Shown: piece after piece, positions 3,384 through 55,291 of the stretch | Numbering within the stretch: position 1 is the stretch's first letter | How the letters are laid out: each line of letters begins with the position of its first letter | DNA from: Collinsella ihumii | GTDB lineage: Bacteria; Actinomycetota; Coriobacteriia; Coriobacteriales; Coriobacteriaceae | Reading direction: 5' to 3' | NCBI RefSeq assembly: GCF_900046475.1 | Contig: NZ_FCOU01000010.1 | Coordinates: 1 to 64,000, forward strand | DNA: 64,000 nucleotides | The notes under the pieces: generated by a model | The model's database searches: none | What the model saw: only the letters and a program-made list of their open reading frames with translations | What the model was told of the DNA's origin: nothing | Program-made: the position numbers and the translations under genes

Positions 3384-5424
3384 TCACGACCCGAGGGTCC
3401 GGAACGGGTCGGCAACGCCCTCGACGGCGCGTTCGAGCTCGCGCACGCGCGCCGCGTCCTGCGTGGCCTTGATGGTCATGTCGCGACGCTCCTCCGCGCT
3501 CAAGGCGCGGTCGGTTCGCAGGCGGGCCTGGGCGGCGCGCATGCGGCGGCGAATCGTGTAGAGCTCGAGTGTGTCGAGCAGAAACTCGATGTTCGTCTCG
3601 GTGGGGTGAGCGCTCGTCGCGTCGATCGTGCCCGCGCTCACCAGCTTTGACGCCTCGGGACAGACGCTGCGCACCGAGTTCATCACCTCGGGAACCGGCG
3701 TCCCCTCGGGGGTCGCGAGCACCGCCCACGCGATCGTCTCGTTGCGCGGGTCGATCCACGAAATCTCGGTGATGCGGTCGGCAAACGCGCGAAAGCTGTC
3801 GGGGTAGCTCGCGAGCAGGCAGACGAGTTCGCGCTCGCCCGCAAGCGAGCGGCGCTCGAGCTCGGTCAGGGCCTGTCTCTTATCCCCAGCTGCCCCTGTT
3901 GGGAGCGCACATTGGGGACGTATCTGTTGACGGCGCCGCGGGCGCGAAGGACGCGGGCGCCGCCTGGGCCTCGACGGGCACGTAGTCGTAGGGCTCCTCC
4001 TCCACGGGAGCGCCCTCCCATGCGTCCATGGCCTCAGGCGCCGGCGCGACCGGACGCGCGTCTCCCCCGCGACGGTCCGATACCGCCCGCTGGGCGCGCT
4101 CGCGGTTGCGCTCGCGCGTCTTGGCGGTCTGCTCCTCCTGGGCGACCTGGCGGAACACCTTGGTCGCCGACTGGCGCACCATGTCCACGTCCGCCCCCAG
4201 GCGGTCTGCGATCTGCATGTAGTACGTGTCGATCATGTAGCTGTCGCGCAGCGGGTAGATGAGCCGGCACGCGTCCTCGAGCGCACGTGCCCGCCCGCCG
4301 GGCGTCGACACGTCGCTGCGGTCCTCGAGCTTGCGGAACACGAAGTCCATGAGCGGCTCGGCGGCGTCGAGAAGCGCGCGCAGTTCCTCCCCTCCCCGGT
4401 CGCGCAGGAAGTCAGCCGGATCCAGGTCGTCGGGCAAGATGACGCAGCGCAGGTCCACCGAACCGGTCTCGACGAACTGGATGGCGCGCTCGGCCGCTTT
4501 CTGGCCGGCCGCGTCGCCGTCGAACAGGTAGACGATGCGTTTGGCAAAGCGGGTCAGCGTCTTGACGTGGTGCTCGGTGAGCGCCGTGCCGAGCGTCGCG
4601 ACGACGTTTTTGATCCCCGCCTCCCAGCACGCGATCGCATCGGTGTAGCCCTCAACCACGATCGCCTCGTTGGCCGCGACGATATGCTCCTTGGCCCAGT
4701 TGAAGCCGTAGAGGTTGCGCTTCTTATGGAAGACCGGGGTCTCCGCGGTGTTGAGGTATTTCGGCTCGCCTTTGCCCATGATGCGGCCGCCGAACGCGAT
4801 GCAGCGCCCCTGCTCGTCGAAGATGGGGAACATCACGCGCTCGTAGAAGCGGTCCGCGAGATTGCCCCGGTCGCGCTTGATCGCCACGTTCGCGTCGACC
4901 ATTTCGCGCGGGGTGAAGCCCTTGGACGAGAGGTGGGCGACGAGCGCCCCGCGCCCCGGGGCGAAGCCCAGCCGGTAGCGCTGGCAGATATCGGAGCCCA
5001 GGCCGCGCGAGGCGAAGTAGGTGCGGCCGCGCCCGTCTTTGCCGCGCATGAGCATGGTGTGGTAGAACGCGCACGTCTCCTCGCACACGTCGACGATGCG
5101 GGTGCGCTTGGTGCCGCGGCGCGCCGTGGGCGCGTCGTCGGCGATCTCGATGCCGGCTCGATCGGCAAGGTAGCGGATGGCATCGGGAAACGTGAGGTTC
5201 TCGCGCTTCATGACGTAGCTGAAGACGTCGCCGCCCTCGCCGCACCCGAAGCAGTGCCACACCTGCGTCGCGGGGATAATGTGGAACGACGGGGTCTTCT
5301 CGCCATGAAAGGGGCAGCAGCCCCAGAACTCCTGGCCGCGCGGGCGGAGCTCGACGGTCTCCTGGACCAGCTGCACCAGATCGGTCGCCGCGCGCACGCG
5401 CTCGCGGTCCTCATCGGAGATCAT
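3384..5424 (-). CDS. dnaG: DNA primase DnaG, frame broken near the C terminus
   Basis: DnaG makes RNA primers at the replication fork. The 5' part (3880-5424) has the zinc-binding domain (CPFHGEKTPSFH with the later CFGCGEGGDVF, about residues 36-65) and the TOPRIM core (EGYTDAIACWEAG and LFDGDAAGQKAAERAI). It stops at 3880-3882, inside a degraded Tn5 mosaic end (3873-3891). The C-terminal helicase-binding region continues in another frame from about 3870 to the stop at 3384 (ERELVCLLASYPDSF, then ATPEGTPVPE). The 514-residue 5' product would lack the DnaB-interaction domain, which is unlikely in an essential gene, so I read this as one gene disrupted by an assembly artefact. A GGGGACGTATC-type repeat also lies just beside the break. 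The start ATG overlaps the ribF stop (ATGA). Confidence 0.85.
3873..3891. other. degraded Tn5/Nextera mosaic end in dnaG
   Basis: The sequence CTGTCTCTTATCCCCAGCT matches the 19-bp Tn5 mosaic end CTGTCTCTTATACACATCT at 16 of 19 positions, with A-to-C and T-to-G changes typical of low-quality reads. It coincides exactly with the point where the dnaG frame is lost, which points to a chimeric read rather than a real mutation. Confidence 0.75.
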
Positions 5425-8822: not shown

Positions 8823-8834
8823 CGTGCGCCTCCC

Positions 8835-11359
<2,525 letters not shown>

Positions 11360-11458
11360 ATGCCAAATCACCTACCTCTCGGGCGCCTGGCGCCCTCACA
11401 GCAATCCAACGGGTCGATCTCGGGTGCGCCCCGCGACGCGGGCGGGACGCGCTACCCG

Positions 11459-12709
11459 TTAGATGAGGTCCTCGGCATCCTCGATGGCGTCCTCTCCGAA
11501 TCCTTCCGGATCATGGACGCCGCAGAAGCGAGAACCGGGACGCGCCTGGTTGCGGCAGCGCACGCCGTCGGAGCTCACGTACGCGCAGCGCTCGGGCTCC
11601 TCGTCGGAGAGCAGGTCCTCCGCCGGCTCGGGAGCGACCGGGACGTTGCGCAGGATGTCGGCGGCGAGCGACTCGCTCTTGATGTCGATGTGCCAGCCCG
11701 TGAGGCGGGCGGCGAGACGGGCGTTTTGGCCCTCCTTGCCGATCGCGAGCGAGAGCTGGTCGTCGGGCACGATGACGCCGGCGTAGTTCTTCTCCTCGTC
11801 GATGAGCACGCGCGTCACCTTCGCGGGCGACAGGGCGTTGCCGACGTAGACGGCGGGATCCTCGTCCCACAGGATGACGTCGACGCGCTCGCCGCGCAGC
11901 TCGGACACGACGGTGCGCACGCGGCTGCCCTTGGGGCCGACGCAGGCGCCCACCGGGTCCAGGCGGTCGTCGAGCGAGCGGACCGCGACCTTGGAGCGCT
12001 GGCCCGGCTCACGCGCGATGGACATGACCTCGACGGTGCCCTCGTAGATCTCGGGGACCTCGAGCTCGAACAGGCGACGGATGAGCGCCGGGTGCGTGCG
12101 GGAGATGACGATCGGCGGACGGGAGTGCTCGCCACGCACGGGCTGCACGGTCGAGTTCGGGTCGCGCACGTCGATGATGACGGCCTTGATGCGCTGGTTG
12201 TGCATGTAGCGCTCGCCCATGGGACGCTCGTTGCGCTCGTTCTCGTAGCGGCGCTGGTCGAAGTGCGGCAGCTCGGCCTCGACGCCCTCGCGGATCTTCA
12301 CGATGGTGAAGTCGGGGGTGGACTGCAGCACGGTGCCGGTGATGATATCGCCGATGCGCGACGAGAACTCCTCGTAGATCTGCTCGCGGGCGGAGTTGCG
12401 CACGATGGCGTTGATCTCGGCCTTGGCGTGCTGCGCCGCAATGCGCGAGGTGTCCTTGGGCGTGACGTCGATCTCCTCGAACTCGGTGTAGTTGCCCTCT
12501 TCGTCCATGGAGTCGTCGATGGGGATGAGCTTGTAGACGTAGATCTTGCCCGTGGAGCGGTCGATGGTGACCTTGGCGCCCCAGTCGAGGTGGAGGATCT
12601 CGGCGTAGCTCTTGGCCAGCGACTGCTCCAAGCGGTCGATGAGGTAGAGCTGATCGATATGCTTCTCCTGGCACAGCGCCATGAGCGCTTCCATCATCTC
12701 CGATGCCAT
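11459..12709 (-). CDS. nusA: transcription termination/antitermination protein NusA
   Basis: NusA binds RNA polymerase and modulates pausing, termination and antitermination. The order is the N-terminal polymerase-binding domain (about 1-130), an S1 domain ([12 protein letters not shown]), then KH1 and KH2 ([18 protein letters not shown] and [18 protein letters not shown]). The C terminus has an extra Cys-rich tail, with C-x9-C-x10-C-x2-H around residues 373-398 ([12 protein letters not shown] and GSRFCGVHD), which could bind a metal. The start ATG shares one base with the rimP stop (TAATG). infB follows after about 100 bp. Confidence 0.95.
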
Positions 12710-15100: not shown

Positions 15101-15257
15101 CGGCCCGCCCCATGCAAACTGGGGACGTACCTTCCGCGTGCACTTTTGCAAATTGGGGGACGTACCTTCCGCATGCACTTTTGCAAATTGGGGACGTACC
15201 TTCGGCGTGCACAAGTGCATGCGGAAGGTACGTCCCCAATTTGCATGGGGCGGGCCG
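15101..15257. repeat. nested palindromic REP-like element
   Basis: The outer arms CGGCCCGCCCCATGCAAA (15101-15118) and its reverse complement (ending 15257) enclose three GGGGACGTACCTTC(C/G)GC(G/A)TGCAC units. The third forms a hairpin with its inverted copy (15196-15245). The units share the core of the array at 1677-1870 but use the CCTTCCGC variant. The element lies in the gap between the leuS terminator and the symporter gene. Confidence 0.85.
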
Positions 15258-17940: not shown

Positions 17941-18160
17941 GCCCATATGGCTAACTCGACAATTCTAGCAAATCGGCCGCATGATGGAGCGTGATCATCG
18001 AGGCCACTGATTCACAACGCCACGTGGCGCACCCGCAGCATCTCGCGCGATGCCTTGGAGGCCGCTCCCCTGCAGCATCTTGCGCACGTCACATGGTTCA
18101 GCGGGACTGGGTTTTATCAAGTTCGGAAGACGAAAGGGGTACACAGACGGCTTCCTATCT

Positions 18161-18317
18161 CTGAAAAACCGAAGTTTTGAGCGACCGCACACTCAAGTTG
18201 ACTAAAACGGCACAAACGGACATGGCATTTTTGCAGGTAGACTGCATGCCGCTTCGGATGGTCGATGCGCTTTCAGGGCCTTTGAAACTGTAGCCACTCA
18301 AAACCTCGTTTTTTCAG
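18161..18317. repeat. 157-bp palindromic element, copy A (MITE-like)
   Basis: The ends are inverted repeats of about 25 bp, from CTGAAAAACCGAAGTTTTGA to CTCGTTTTTTCAG, matching at about 20 positions. The interior shares ACGGCACAAACGGACATG and TTTTTGCAGGTAGACTGCAT with copy B at 19633-19789, which is exactly the same length. The core TGCAGGTAGACTGCA is itself a small hairpin. No coding capacity. The two copies flank the gene at 18469-19527. Confidence 0.8.
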
Positions 18318-18468
18318 CGACTCTTTCGATTCAAACTACCGGACGCAAGCGCACCCCGGTTGATACACCCCTGCGATTGCCAGAAAGGAATGCGCTGCCG
18401 CCGAAGCAATCGAGTCGGCCCATACAGCAAGCCGAGATGATTGGTGCCCGTATTTTGGAAGGCCTCGC

Positions 18469-19527
18469 TCAGTAACCTGGACCCTTGAACACAAACCGCT
18501 TCCATAAGTCATCCTGACGAGAGCGAAATCGAGCGAGCTGCATCCTTCCCTCCTCGCTCTCGCGAGATACGCGCAAGGTTGGACGTGCAGCGAGCTTCAG
18601 CACACGACGAGCCCGCTCCCCCATGAGTACCAGATAATCGAAATCTTCGAGATCCGATGTGGTAATCGAATAATGGACGATCGAATCGACCGTGGCAATC
18701 GCATTCGCTCGACGACGGTCATCAAGCAGCTTGGCGTCCCCTTCGTGAACCGAGACGCTATCGTAATCAAATGCAACGTCCCGCCGAGCACCGGACTTAC
18801 TCACCGAGGTCAGCAGGATATCGGGATAGCGCTCTTCGCTCTGAGGTTTACCGAATAGATCGCGTCCCGTAAATACTTTGATACAGGGATTTAGTCTAAC
18901 AGTTCCCAGCTTCAACCCACCGAGGGCTGGGGGAAGCCCGTAGAACATGGCAAGCCCTGATTCCTTGGGCGATCGGGAATGCTCAAGCACGTAGGGCAAT
19001 GCGATTCGTGCTTTTCGCGCCCCGTATAACGAACCCGCGCGCTCGAGAAATCGTTCGATGCGGGAAACCGATGTCAGTGGTACGTCAGGACAAGATCTGG
19101 CAACGATGCCGCCGGCTCCCAACGGCTCGATTCGATAATCGGAGCACAATGCCATGCCCGCATAGATAGCACCAAGCTTGTCTGATGTGGCAGCCATGTG
19201 CACGAACGTAAGCTCAGGGTTTGTGATATAGAGGGAAAGGTCGTCTATGCCACTAGGTATCCCGATGAGCGAACCCTGAGGTAACGAATCGCGACATAGA
19301 TGGGCGCATACCCTCTTGCCCCTCCTGCGCAGCAGCGGATCATCGGTCAAGAAATCCAAAGGGATATCCTCAAGATCGAGGAACCATTGCAGTTTGCGAA
19401 TGACCTCATCGCTCGGAATGCTGGCATAGGCCAGGGATGCGCGCAGCGATCGAGAGCCGATTTCTCTCGGATTCTTATGGCGCATGTACCATATTGTAGC
19501 CGCAGTATGTCCAAGTACGCATTTCAT
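18469..19527 (-). CDS. AbiEi/DUF559-like protein, possible PD-(D/E)XK nuclease fold
   Basis: A 352-residue protein I cannot name. The C-terminal third (about 235-300) reads RRDVAFDYDSVSVHEG, then DDRRRANAIATVDSIVHYSI, which follows the DUF559/Vsr-like pattern (E/D-YD...H...DRRR...V). That pattern is usually fused to an AbiEi-type antitoxin N terminus in actinobacteria. The usual glutamate is an aspartate here. The N terminus starts directly with MKCVLGHTAATIWYMRHKN and lacks a clear ribosome site, so a later ATG at 19485 is possible. It stands alone between two 157-bp palindromic elements, which suggests an accessory cargo gene. A role in phage defence or toxin-antitoxin control is inference only. 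Confidence 0.5.
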   Translation of the reverse strand: MKCVLGHTAATIWYMRHKNPREIGSRSLRASLAYASIPSDEVIRKLQWFLDLEDIPLDFLTDDPLLRRRGKRVCAHLCRDSLPQGSLIGIPSGIDDLSLYITNPELTFVHMAATSDKLGAIYAGMALCSDYRIEPLGAGGIVARSCPDVPLTSVSRIERFLERAGSLYGARKARIALPYVLEHSRSPKESGLAMFYGLPPALGGLKLGTVRLNPCIKVFTGRDLFGKPQSEERYPDILLTSVSKSGARRDVAFDYDSVSVHEGDAKLLDDRRRANAIATVDSIVHYSITTSDLEDFDYLVLMGERARRVLKLAARPTLRVSRESEEGRMQLARFRSRQDDLWKRFVFKGPGY

Positions 19528-19632
19528 GCTGCGAGCATATCATATTGGCACAGTACATACAATATATATCTCAGAATATTAGCTACGGCAGGAACTCATT
19601 CGGAAGAAAGGTGCTTGCAGCCATGAGAGTCA

Positions 19633-19789
19633 CTGAAAAAACGGGGATTTGAGTGCCCGCGCATTCAAGTGGATCAAAACGGCACAAACGGACATGACCT
19701 TTTTGCAGGTAGACTGCATGTCGCCCCCGGTGGTCGATGTGCTTTCGGGTCCCTTGAATCTATAGGCACTCATACCCTCGTTTTTTCAG
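19633..19789. repeat. 157-bp palindromic element, copy B (MITE-like)
   Basis: Same length and orientation as copy A, with terminal inverted repeats matching at 21 of 25 positions (CTGAAAAAACGGGGATTTGA against the complement of the right end). The palindrome extends outward by TCA/TGA. The interior matches copy A over most of its length. It lies upstream of the AbiEi-like gene and downstream of guaB. Confidence 0.85.
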
Positions 19790-19822
19790 TGATCCTCTTG
19801 TCCGCAGCTACCCCTGAAGACA

Positions 19823-49344: not shown

Positions 49345-50738
49345 TCAACTCCGCAACAACCCGGCAACCTCACCGGCAAGCGTGATGGTCCCGGCAGCAA
49401 CAACGGGCTCTCCCGCCTCGGTGAGCGCGTCCAGCGCGTCGGCGACCGTGTCGTAGACGGAAAGCAGGCCGTCAGGCGCCCTCCCCTCTCGCTCGAGCTC
49501 CTCGGCGACAAGCTGCGCAAGCTCACCGGGAGCAAGCGCGCGGTCGGATGCCGTCGCCGTCACCGCGAAGCGCGGGAACGCCGGGACGAGCGTGCGCACG
49601 ATGCCGGACACGTCCTTATCGGAAAGCGCCGCGATGAGCAGCAGCGGCCGCTTCGAGACGTCCTCGTCGACCTCATCGAGCGCGCTGACGAAGTTCTCGC
49701 AGCTCTGAGGGTTGTGGCAGGCATCGATGAGGACAAGGGGCCGACGCCGCACGATATCGAACCGCCCGGGCGTGGGGCAGGTCTCCAAGCTGAGCTGGAG
49801 CGAGGCGGGGCTCAGCTGGCGGCCGAGATACGCCTCGACCAGATGGATGGCGCAGGCGGCGTTTTGAGGCTGGTAGCTCGGCTTGGGAAAGCGTACCTCG
49901 TAAGTTGTCCGCTCAGTTGCCGTGGCGAAGGCGAGCATGTCTCCCACATGGCGCGGAAGCTCGCGCACCTCATGGGTCACGACGAGCGGCGTCACCCCGC
50001 AAGCTTCGCAGCGCTCGTCCATCACGCGCTGCACCTCCGGCTCGTGCGTCCCCTCGCCGAGCACGACGATGCGCCCCGGCTTGATGACAGCAGCCTTCTC
50101 GGCCGCAATCTCGCCCAAGGTATCGCCCAGGATGCGCATGTGGTCGAGCCCGATGCCCGTGATGGCGACCGCCACCGGATCGGCCGCGCTCGTGGCGTCC
50201 CAGCGGCCGCCCATACCCACCTCGAGCACCGCGACATCGACCCTCGCCTCGGCGAAGACGACGAACGCGGCAACGGTCAGCAGGTCGAACGGCGTGATCG
50301 TGTAAGCGCGCTGCCCCGCCGCCGTGCGCGCCGCCTTGACGAAGCCGGAGCCGAAGCCGGCATCGACGTGCCAGTCCTCGAAGATGGGGATCTCGCGGTT
50401 GACGATGGGCAGCATCACGGTCATGCGGCTGTCTCTTATACACATCTAGATGTGTATAAGAGACAGGACGTGTAGAGCGCGGTACGAAGGCCCTCGCCGA
50501 CAAGGATCGCGGCGGCAAAACGGGTCGTCGAGGTCTTGCCGTTCGTGCCCGCGATCTGCAGGCAGTCGTAGTGCTCGTCGGGACGCCCGAGCTCGTCGAG
50601 CATGTCGACGACCGTCTCGAGCAGCGGGCCGGCGTCGCCCGAGATGCGGCCCGTGTCGGCGGCAAGCGACACCGCCTCGTCAAAGGAAAGCTCGGGCACC
50701 TCGAAGCGCACCGCGTACGCATCGGTTCGTTTAGGCAT
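49345..50738 (-). CDS. folC: folylpolyglutamate/dihydrofolate synthase FolC, broken by a chimeric insert
   Basis: FolC adds glutamates to folates. The N-terminal part (50467-50738) reads MPKRTDAYAVRFEVPELSFD and holds the P-loop-like DCLQIAGTNGKTSTTRFAAA. The C-terminal part (49345-50333) has AYTITPFDLLTVAAFVVFAE, VAVLEVGMGGRWDATSAAD and VLIDACHNPQSCENF. Between them, 50334-50466 is foreign: 89 bp identical to part of valS, then two Tn5 mosaic ends head to head. About 25 codons of real folC (after EGLRTALYTS) are missing. The break is artefactual, and the true gene is almost certainly intact. Confidence 0.9.
50334..50466. other. chimeric insert: valS fragment plus palindromic Tn5 mosaic ends
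   Basis: 50334-50422 is identical to valS at 54310-54398 (89 bp). Then CTGTCTCTTATACACATCT (50429-50447) and its exact reverse complement (50448-50466) form a perfect 38-bp palindrome. This is the Nextera adapter signature, and its translations give the familiar contaminant peptides MCIRDS and SYTHLDVYKRQ. Confidence 0.97.
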
Positions 50739-52435: not shown

Positions 52436-55129
52436 CTACGCGAAATCGGCCAGCTGGGCCTTGAGCGCGGCAATCTCGGCCTCGAGCTCAGCGGCGCGCT
52501 CGCGCTTCTTTGCCACGACCTCGGGCGCGGCCTTGGCCACGAAGCCCTCGTTGGCGAGGGTCTTGTTGGCGCTCGCCAGCTCCTTCTCGTCCTTGGCGAT
52601 GGTCTTCTCGATGCGGGCGCGCTCGGCATCGAAGTCCACCAGGTCGCCCACGACCACGTAGGCGTTGAAGTCCGGGCCGGCCAGGGCGATGGAGCCCTCG
52701 GGCTTGGCAAAGCCCTCCTCGTCCACGACGTTCAGCGTCTTCACGCTCGCAAAGCCGCGGATGAACTCGGCCATGCCCTCGATCGCCTCGGCGACCTCGG
52801 CGCTGTGAGCGCACACGTGCACATCCAGCTGCTCCTTGGGGCTGATGCGGTAGCGGGCACGCGTGGAGCGCACGTCGGTCACCACGGCGCGGGTGAGCTC
52901 GAAGGCGCGCTCGGCCGGCTCGTTCACCCAGCGCTCGAAGTCAGCGGGCTCGGGCCACGCGGCGACCATGAGAGCCTCGGCGCGCTCGCCGTCCATATCG
53001 AGGCAGCTCGCGGGCATGACGTCCCAGATCGCCTCGGTCACGAACGGCATGAGCGGGTGCATGAGGCGCAGGCTCGTATCGAGCACGAAGATGAGGTTGC
53101 GCTGCGCCTGCAGGCGGGCGCCCTCGTCCTTCAGACGGCTCTTGGTCACCTCGACGTACCAGTCGCAGACCTCGTTCCAGAAGAAGCTCTGGATGCTGCG
53201 CGCGACGTCGCCAAACGTGTAGCCCTCGATGCCCTCGGTTACCGAGGCGACCGTCTTGGCAAGGCGGCTGAACATCCAGGCGTCGGCCGGCGTCTCGGCC
53301 ACCGGCTCGCCCGGCGTATAGCCTTCCATGTTCATGAGGAGGAAGCGACTCGCGTTCCAGATCTTGGTCACGAACGACTTGGCCTGCTCGGTGCGCGGGC
53401 TGCCCTTGAACTCATGCGTCTTCTTATCGATGTCCGCATCGAACTTGACGTCCTGGTTGTTGGTGAACAGGGAGAGCAGGTTGAAGCGCATGGCGTCGGC
53501 GCCGTACTTGTCCATCAGGACCATGGGGTCCACGCCGTTGCCCTTGGACTTGGACATGCGGCTGCCGTCCTTGGCGAGGATCGTCGGGTAGATGACGACG
53601 TCGTGGAACGGCTCCTCGCCCAGGAAGTACTCGGAGCTCATGATCATACGGGCGACCCACAGCGCGATGATGTCGCGCGCGGTGACGAGCGCCGTCGTGG
53701 GATGATGGCCCTCGAGCGCCTCGGGCTTCTGCGGCCAGCCCTGCGTGGCGAAGGTCCACAGCTGCGAGCTGAACCAGGTGTCGAGCACGTTCTCGTCCTG
53801 ATGCACGTGGTGGCCGCCGCACTTGGGGCACACGTCGGTGTCCTCCATGAGGGCGTCCTCCCAGCCGCAGTCCTCGCAGTAGAACACGGGGATGCGATGG
53901 CCCCACCACAGCTGACGGCTGATGCACCAGTCCTTGAGGTTCTCCATCCAGGTGAGGTAGGACTGCTTCCAGCGCTCCGCGTTGAAGCGGACGCGACCAG
54001 ACTCCACGGCCTCGATCGCAGGCCCCTTGAGCTTGTCGACGGCAACGAACCACTGCTCGGACAGCCAGGGCTCGAGCGTGGTGTCGCAGCGGTAGCAGTG
54101 CATGACCGAGTGGTCATGGTCCTCGATGTGGTCGAGCAGGCCGTGCTCCTCGAACCACGCCACGACGGCCTCGCGGCACTCGTCGCGCGTCATGCCGGAG
54201 AACTCGCCGTAGCCGTCCACGACGACCGCGTGCTCGTCGAAGATGTTGATCTGCGGAAGGTCGTGCGCGGCGCCCATGGCGTAGTCGTTGGGGTCGTGCG
54301 CAGGCGTGACCTTGACGAAGCCGGAGCCGAAGCCGGCATCGACGTGCCAGTCCTCGAAGATGGGGATCTCGCGGTTGACGATGGGCAGCATCACGGTCTT
54401 GCCCACGAAGGCGGCCTTCTCGGGATCCTTGGGGCTGACGGCGACGCCGGTGTCGCCGAGCATGGTCTCGGGACGCGTCGTGGCGACGACGATGTAGTCC
54501 TGCCCGTTCACCGGCTCGGTCAGCGGGTAGCGCAGGTGCCACAGGTGGCCGGACTCGTCTTTGTACTCCGCCTCGTCGTCCGAGATGGCCGTGGTGCAGG
54601 AGGGGCACCAGTTAACGATGCGCTTTCCGCGGTAGATGAGCCCGTCGTGGTACCAGTCGCAGAACACCTTGCGCACGGCCTCGGCGTAGTCATCGTCCAT
54701 CGTGAAGCGCTCGTGCTCGAAGTCGACCGAGCAGCCCATGCGCTTGATCTGCTCCTTGATGGTGCCGCCGTACTCATGCGTCCAGTCCCAGCAGGCGTCG
54801 ATGAAGGCCTCGCGGCCCATCTCGAGGCGGTTTTTACCCTCCTCTTTCAGCTTCTTGTCGACCTTGGTCTGCGTGGCGATGCCCGCGTGGTCGGTGCCCA
54901 GGATCCACTGGGTGGAGCGGCCGCGCATGCGCGCCTCGCGGACGATGGCGTCCTGGATGGAGTCATCGAGCGCATGGCCCATATGCAGCACGCCGGTCAC
55001 GTTGGGAGGCGGGATGGTCACGGTGCAGTCGCCCACGCCGGGACGACGCTGGTAGTAGCCGCCGTCGAGCCACTTCTGAAGGATCTTGGGCTCGTTTTCA
55101 GACGGATCGTATGTCTTGGGCATCTCTTC
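52436..55129 (-). CDS. valS: valyl-tRNA synthetase
   Basis: Class I synthetase that charges tRNA-Val. The HIGH-type motif is GVLHMGHALDDSIQD (about residue 47-61), the KMSKS-type motif is SRMSKSKGNGVDP, and zinc-knuckle cysteines occur in CPSC and in CEDCGW/CPKCGG. The C-terminal coiled-coil arm (ARIEKTIAKDEKELASANKT) is typical of ValS. Its length of 897 residues is normal. The ATG at 55129 (MEEMPKTYD) has AGAAAGGGA 7 bp upstream. 54310-54398 is the source of the duplicate in folC. Confidence 0.95.
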   Translation of the reverse strand, partial: EEMPKTYDPSENEPKILQKWLDGGYYQRRPGVGDCTVTIPPPNVTGVLHMGHALDDSIQDAIVREARMRGRSTQWILGTDHAGIATQTKVDKKLKEEGKNRLEMGREAFIDACWDWTHEYGGTIKEQIKRMGCSVDFEHERFTMDDDYAEAVRKVFCDWYHDGLIYRGKRIVNWCPSCTTAISDDEAEYKDESGHLWHLRYPLTEPVNGQDYIVVATTRPETMLGDTGVAVSPKDPEKAAFVGKTVMLPIVNREIPIFEDWHVDAGFGSGFVKVTPAHDPNDYAMGAAHDLPQINIFDEHAVVVDGYGEFSGMTRDECREAVVAWFEEHGLLDHIEDHDHSVMHCYRCDTTLEPWLSEQWFVAVDKLKGPAIEAVESGRVRFNAERWKQSYLTWMENLKDWCISRQLWWGHRIPVFYCEDCGWEDALMEDTDVCPKCGGHHVHQDENVLDTWFSSQLWTFATQGWPQKPEALEGHHPTTALVTARDIIALWVARMIMSSEYFLGEEPFHDVVIYPTILAKDGSRMSKSKGNGVDPMVLMDKYGADAMRFNLLSLFTNNQDVKFDADIDKKTHEFKGSPRTEQAKSFVTKIWNASRFLLMNMEGYTPGEPVAETPADAWMFSRLAKTVASVTEGIEGYTFGDVARSIQSFFWNEVCDWYVEVTKSRLKDEGARLQAQRNLIFVLDTSLRLMHPLMPFVTEAIWDVMPASCLDMDGERAEALMVAAWPEPADFERWVNEPAERAFELTRAVVTDVRSTRARYRISPKEQLDVHVCAHSAEVAEAIEGMAEFIRGFASVKTLNVVDEEGFAKPEGSIALAGPDFNAYVVVGDLVDFDAERARIEKTIAKDEKELASANKTLANEGFVAKAAPEVVAKKRERAAELEAEIAALKAQLADFA

Positions 55130-55291
55130 CATGCGAAATTCCCTTTCTGTTGCGATACACAAGTCTTGAGGTTACCACGAATGTCCCCGCGGTTGCGCCA
55201 TACCTACGGGAAATCGTCACTTGACCCCATTGTCGGGAGAAGGCGGAGCGCCGCGCCTGTCCCCCCGCCGTCGTCGAGCAACCTATGATTT

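Follow-up and report, generated by a model that had tools for sequence, protein, structure and literature searches.

The window, i.e., the whole stretch of 64,000 nucleotides that was analyzed, carries folC on the minus strand in two parts, which are separated by a palindrome of 38 bp and by a copied piece of the gene valS. The following features were annotated at this locus:

49345–50333, minus strand, C-terminal part of folC (NCBIfam folC; 85% identical to the closest relative)
50334–50428, no strand assigned, copy of valS at the wrong place, exact over 89 bp and 98.9% identical over 93 bp, with mismatching bases on the adapter side (alignment within the window)
50429–50466, no strand assigned, 38-bp mate-pair junction adapter of two Tn5 mosaic ends head to head (exact match; printed in PMC7357533)
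50467–50738, minus strand, N-terminal part of folC, with 50467 as the near end of the putative circularized fragment (NCBIfam folC, alignment with relatives)
52436–55162, minus strand, valS, the intact donor gene (NCBIfam valine--tRNA ligase)
54310–54402, no strand assigned, source of the copy inside the intact valS and far end of the putative circularized fragment (alignment within the window)

Interruption of folC

The NCBIfam model for folC matches both parts of the gene, the N-terminal one at 50469–50738 and the C-terminal one at 49348–50211. On the minus strand, the N-terminal part ends with ...LRTALYTS and then enters the junction, and the C-terminal part picks up again to the left of the valS piece. 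FolC is uninterrupted in the relatives of the same genus, and by comparison with their proteins 35–37 codons are missing here, so that the sequence-only reading, with about 25 codons, was too low. In the closest relative the missing segment reads PQLVRYPERM...EAGRR(VN).

The exact copy of 89 bp of valS reported in that reading was confirmed by alignment (50334–50422 equals 54310–54398), and the match runs on to 93 bp with one mismatch (50334–50426 against 54310–54402, 98.9%). The piece originates from the same strand, 3,976 bp farther right (offset +3976), as for the two ends of a single fragment that are kilobases apart. Three of the last six bases left of the palindrome (50423, 50427 and 50428) differ from valS. 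These odd bases, ATGCGG (50423–50428), could be folC sequence; the relatives encode Pro-Gln/His at the corresponding place. At the left join, FolC of the relatives has R-V-N, close to F-V-K of valS, and a few bases shared by the two genes may have served to attach the valS piece at its left end to folC.

The palindrome itself (50429–50466) has the sequence CTGTCTCTTATACACATCTAGATGTGTATAAGAGACAG. Two perfect 19-bp Tn5 mosaic ends abut in it, at 50429–50447 on the minus and at 50448–50466 on the plus strand, exactly as had been read from the sequence, and no such pair occurred in 100 shuffled sequences. The 38-bp sequence was published as a circularization adapter (PMC7357533), and half of it is also in print as a Nextera mate-pair adapter; the exact double mosaic-end junction that marks a Nextera mate-pair artefact is thereby present in folC. 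The palindrome had been called a Nextera adapter. Its Nextera origin stands, but it is a mate-pair circularization junction rather than an ordinary read adapter, and this accounts for an inserted piece whose origin is on the same strand, 4 kb downstream. The TruSeq outer adapter was not seen beside this junction.

Mosaic ends are functional Tn5 ends, and palindromes and short duplications do arise in cells, as expected if folC had been hit by a real cellular transposition or by an engineered insertion of Tn5, and the transposon body had been lost later. The two mosaic ends abut directly, however, with nothing between them, and the bases on the left (...CATGCGG) are not repeated on the right (GACGTGTAG). 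Neither a transposon body nor the 9-bp target duplication of a Tn5 insertion is thus found at 50429–50466.

Junctions in the Whole Genome

The genome (2.84 Mb in 35 contigs) was searched for the junction with up to three mismatches. In total, 28 junctions were detected, 10 of them perfect, and a reversed control pattern gave no match. For a Tn5 insertion this would mean 28 copies in one genome, some in essential genes and some at contig ends; the distance to the contig end is 8 bases for one perfect junction and 16 bases for another.

Sixty bases on each side of every junction were aligned to the 9 kb to its left and the 9 kb to its right, on either strand, and a second copy was counted at a score of at least 20, the remaining flanks scoring 16 or less. 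Sixteen flanks with a recognizable second copy were obtained, four of which scored only 20–22. All 16 match the side and strand expected of a circle joint: 11 left flanks are copied from the right and five right flanks from the left, always on the same strand. With four equal classes, the chance of finding 16 of 16 in one of them is 0.25^16 = 2e-10. At 12 of the 28 junctions no second copy was recognized within 9 kb, where the alignment reached only as far as the extracted stretches and sources beyond may be missed. The implied fragment lengths range from 1.7 to 6.7 kb (median 3.65 kb, mean 4.0 kb). At several junctions, including that at 50429, two to six bases beside the adapter fit neither flank well.

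Furthermore, an outer library adapter was found beside the junction at three other sites (C13:66797, C10:145416 and near C3:369217), where 51–54 bases shortly after the junction resemble the TruSeq universal adapter, with scores of 39–48 compared to 11 or less in shuffled sequences. The read-type errors and sequencing adapters that the junction copies bear also speak against a Tn5 insertion.

All Nextera kits use the same 19-bp mosaic ends, and the mosaic ends as such would be explained by an artefact of ordinary Nextera paired-end sequencing, in which a pair of unrelated tagmented fragments became connected at their ends while the library was prepared and entered the assembly in this form. 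Random joins, however, would not place 16 of 16 flanks in one class of side and strand at distances of 1.7–6.7 kb, and the outer adapter at the three sites is TruSeq instead of the Nextera i5/i7 arms. This origin is therefore considered very unlikely.

Apart from this, C3:369332–369812 and C8:62139–62619 carry the same degraded junction with near-identical flanks (the right flank is 96% identical over 400 bp), and they seem to represent one chimeric join that was placed twice.

Further Joins in the Window

Two more joins were annotated in the window:

10921–11037, no strand assigned, second join, located in infB; an error-bearing half junction precedes an error-rich copy of 8832–8927 (offset -2108)
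3873–3929, no strand assigned, probable third join, located in dnaG; a half junction (three mismatches) precedes about 35 bases that resemble a repeat near 1683

In infB, the half junction at 10921–10939 (AGAGGTGTATAAGAGACAC) carries two errors, and the copy of 8832–8927 that follows it is 84% identical. The right flank is thus copied from the left, as a circle joint predicts. The start of infB (within 11038–11470) is parted from the remainder (8835–10877, NCBIfam IF-2), and by eye about 130 residues of the IF-2 linker of the relatives are absent. The stretch 10921–11037 is clearly a mate-pair join.

The half junction at 3873 (CTGTCTCTTATCCCCAGCT) splits dnaG (3880–5424, NCBIfam dnaG) from its C-terminal part, which continues to the left of 3873. 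The roughly 35 bases after it resemble the repeat near 1683 with a score of 29, compared to 19 for the next best match, and are also copied from the left. A mate-pair join near 3873 is rated only as probable because the repeat which the piece matches is present in several copies. The warning of the sequence-only reading that other broken genes may be artefacts was thus justified, clearly for infB and probably for dnaG, with 28 junctions in the genome as a whole.

The repeat in question, located at 1680–1876 and 15113–15245, is built of 28-bp units in tandem (GGGAGTGCAAATTGGGGACGTACCTGTT) together with an inverted copy. There are 20 copies of its core CAAATTGGGGACGTA in the genome, compared to 0 for the control, and the repeat looks like a dispersed palindromic one. 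A direct repeat of about 170 bp (18158–18325 and 19630–19799, 82% identical, 1,472 bp apart) flanks the ORF 18469–19527; no adapter was seen beside it.

Occurrence in Related and Other Genomes

With up to two mismatches, the 38-mer was not detected in any of the 44 other genomes of the genus. The exact 38-mer is present in 3 of 398 genomes of the class, including the genome described here, and a scan of reference genomes revealed at least 111 stretches with it, which belong to unrelated taxa. Among the matches listed are Olsenella massiliensis SIT9, Bittarella massiliensis GD6, Enterococcus sp. 10A9_DIV0425 and Ideonella sp. MAG2. The junction is present in many public reference genomes; some have several of them only a few kb apart, and symmetric near-tandem copies often lie to either side.

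The 28 occurrences in the genome would suit a natural repeat family of the lineage that resembles the mosaic end by chance. Such a family can be dismissed as practically impossible, since the sequence is identical to the synthetic adapter and is scattered over unrelated taxa, yet missing from all 44 congeners. The absence of the junction from the relatives also counts against Tn5, and a transposition or engineered insertion with later loss of the body is regarded as extremely improbable. There is likewise next to no likelihood of a genuine mosaic-end insertion in folC of the living strain, e.g., in an engineered or altered isolate.

The circle-joint geometry was also tested on 97 junctions from other public genomes. 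A strong second copy was available for 66 flanks, and 49 of these agree with the geometry, compared to an expectation of about a quarter. Many of them, however, are near-tandem repeats of symmetric form that lie within 200 bp and have no discriminating power. In 8 of 158 cases, random 50-mers drawn from these loci also passed the threshold, and the geometry in these genomes is not used as main evidence.

In titles and abstracts, no report of adapter artefacts in proteins could be found for the adapter-encoded peptides SYTHL, VYKRQ, MCIRD and CLLYTS, and a search for a published survey of such junction contamination in public genomes was likewise without result.

Origin of the Inserted Sequence

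The palindrome and the valS piece in folC are almost certainly a mate-pair circularization joint from incompletely trimmed reads that was left in the assembly. The Nextera method starts with the cutting and tagging of DNA, followed by circularization and shearing; the pieces holding the junction are then sequenced (PMC6298255). Here, the mate-pair transposome would have tagmented the genomic DNA, and each fragment would have been circularized, its ends meeting at the 38-bp double mosaic-end junction. The fragment concerned would extend from folC (50467) to valS (about 54402) and measure about 3.94 kb, and a read crossing its joint would show the end of valS, the junction and the start of folC, i.e., far end, junction and near end. 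An incompletely trimmed junction read, or the consensus of several, may then have bridged a gap in folC, replacing about 35–37 codons.

The insertion most likely took place during gap closing or contig extension, by the assembler or a gap-closing program, at places that are difficult to assemble. A gap at infB is plausible because a contig break coincides with this gene in one relative, and the sequence there is masked or unknown in another. The window contains no N although three joins are present, which was counted as support for gaps at such places. For gut isolates, a workflow was described in which both trimmed and untrimmed mate-pair data were assembled and GapCloser was run afterward (PMC5552949). 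Mate-pair inserts are typically 1–10 kb (PMC4458127), and a project on gut isolates that used no size selection obtained 1.5–11 kb (PMC5552949); the implied fragments of 1.7–6.7 kb fall within the usual range of such libraries.

The adapter match, the geometry of 16 of 16 flanks and the intact folC of the relatives all support the earlier claim of a chimeric assembly join with Nextera sequence, for which the word "proves" was slightly strong. No other reading fits the evidence, and the palindrome with the valS insert represents a known type of assembly artefact and no biological feature.

Significance

The apparent gene breaks in this genome are assembly errors, clearly in folC and infB and probably in dnaG, and at about 28 places, therefore, pseudogene calls, claims of gene loss and predicted proteins cannot be relied on. 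The value of the finding lies not in biology but in this quality warning and in a quick screen, by palindrome search and the test of flank side and strand, for such joins in other assemblies; the 38-mer also sits in other public reference genomes (the at least 111 stretches and the 3 of 398 genomes of the class given above).

Comparison With Known Systems

Tn5 and mini-Tn5 share with the locus the mosaic ends, which are derived from Tn5 ends, but here they stand without a transposon body and without the 9-bp target duplication. Ordinary Nextera paired-end read-through has the 19-bp mosaic end in common with it, but would show a single mosaic end with an i5/i7 arm and no paired flanks kilobases apart. 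The Nextera mate-pair junction in an assembly agrees in the identical 38-bp sequence, in the order of far end, junction and near end with fragments of 1.7–6.7 kb, and in the outer TruSeq adapter at some sites. There is no essential difference from it; the chimeric reads lie here in the middle of genes as well as at contig ends.
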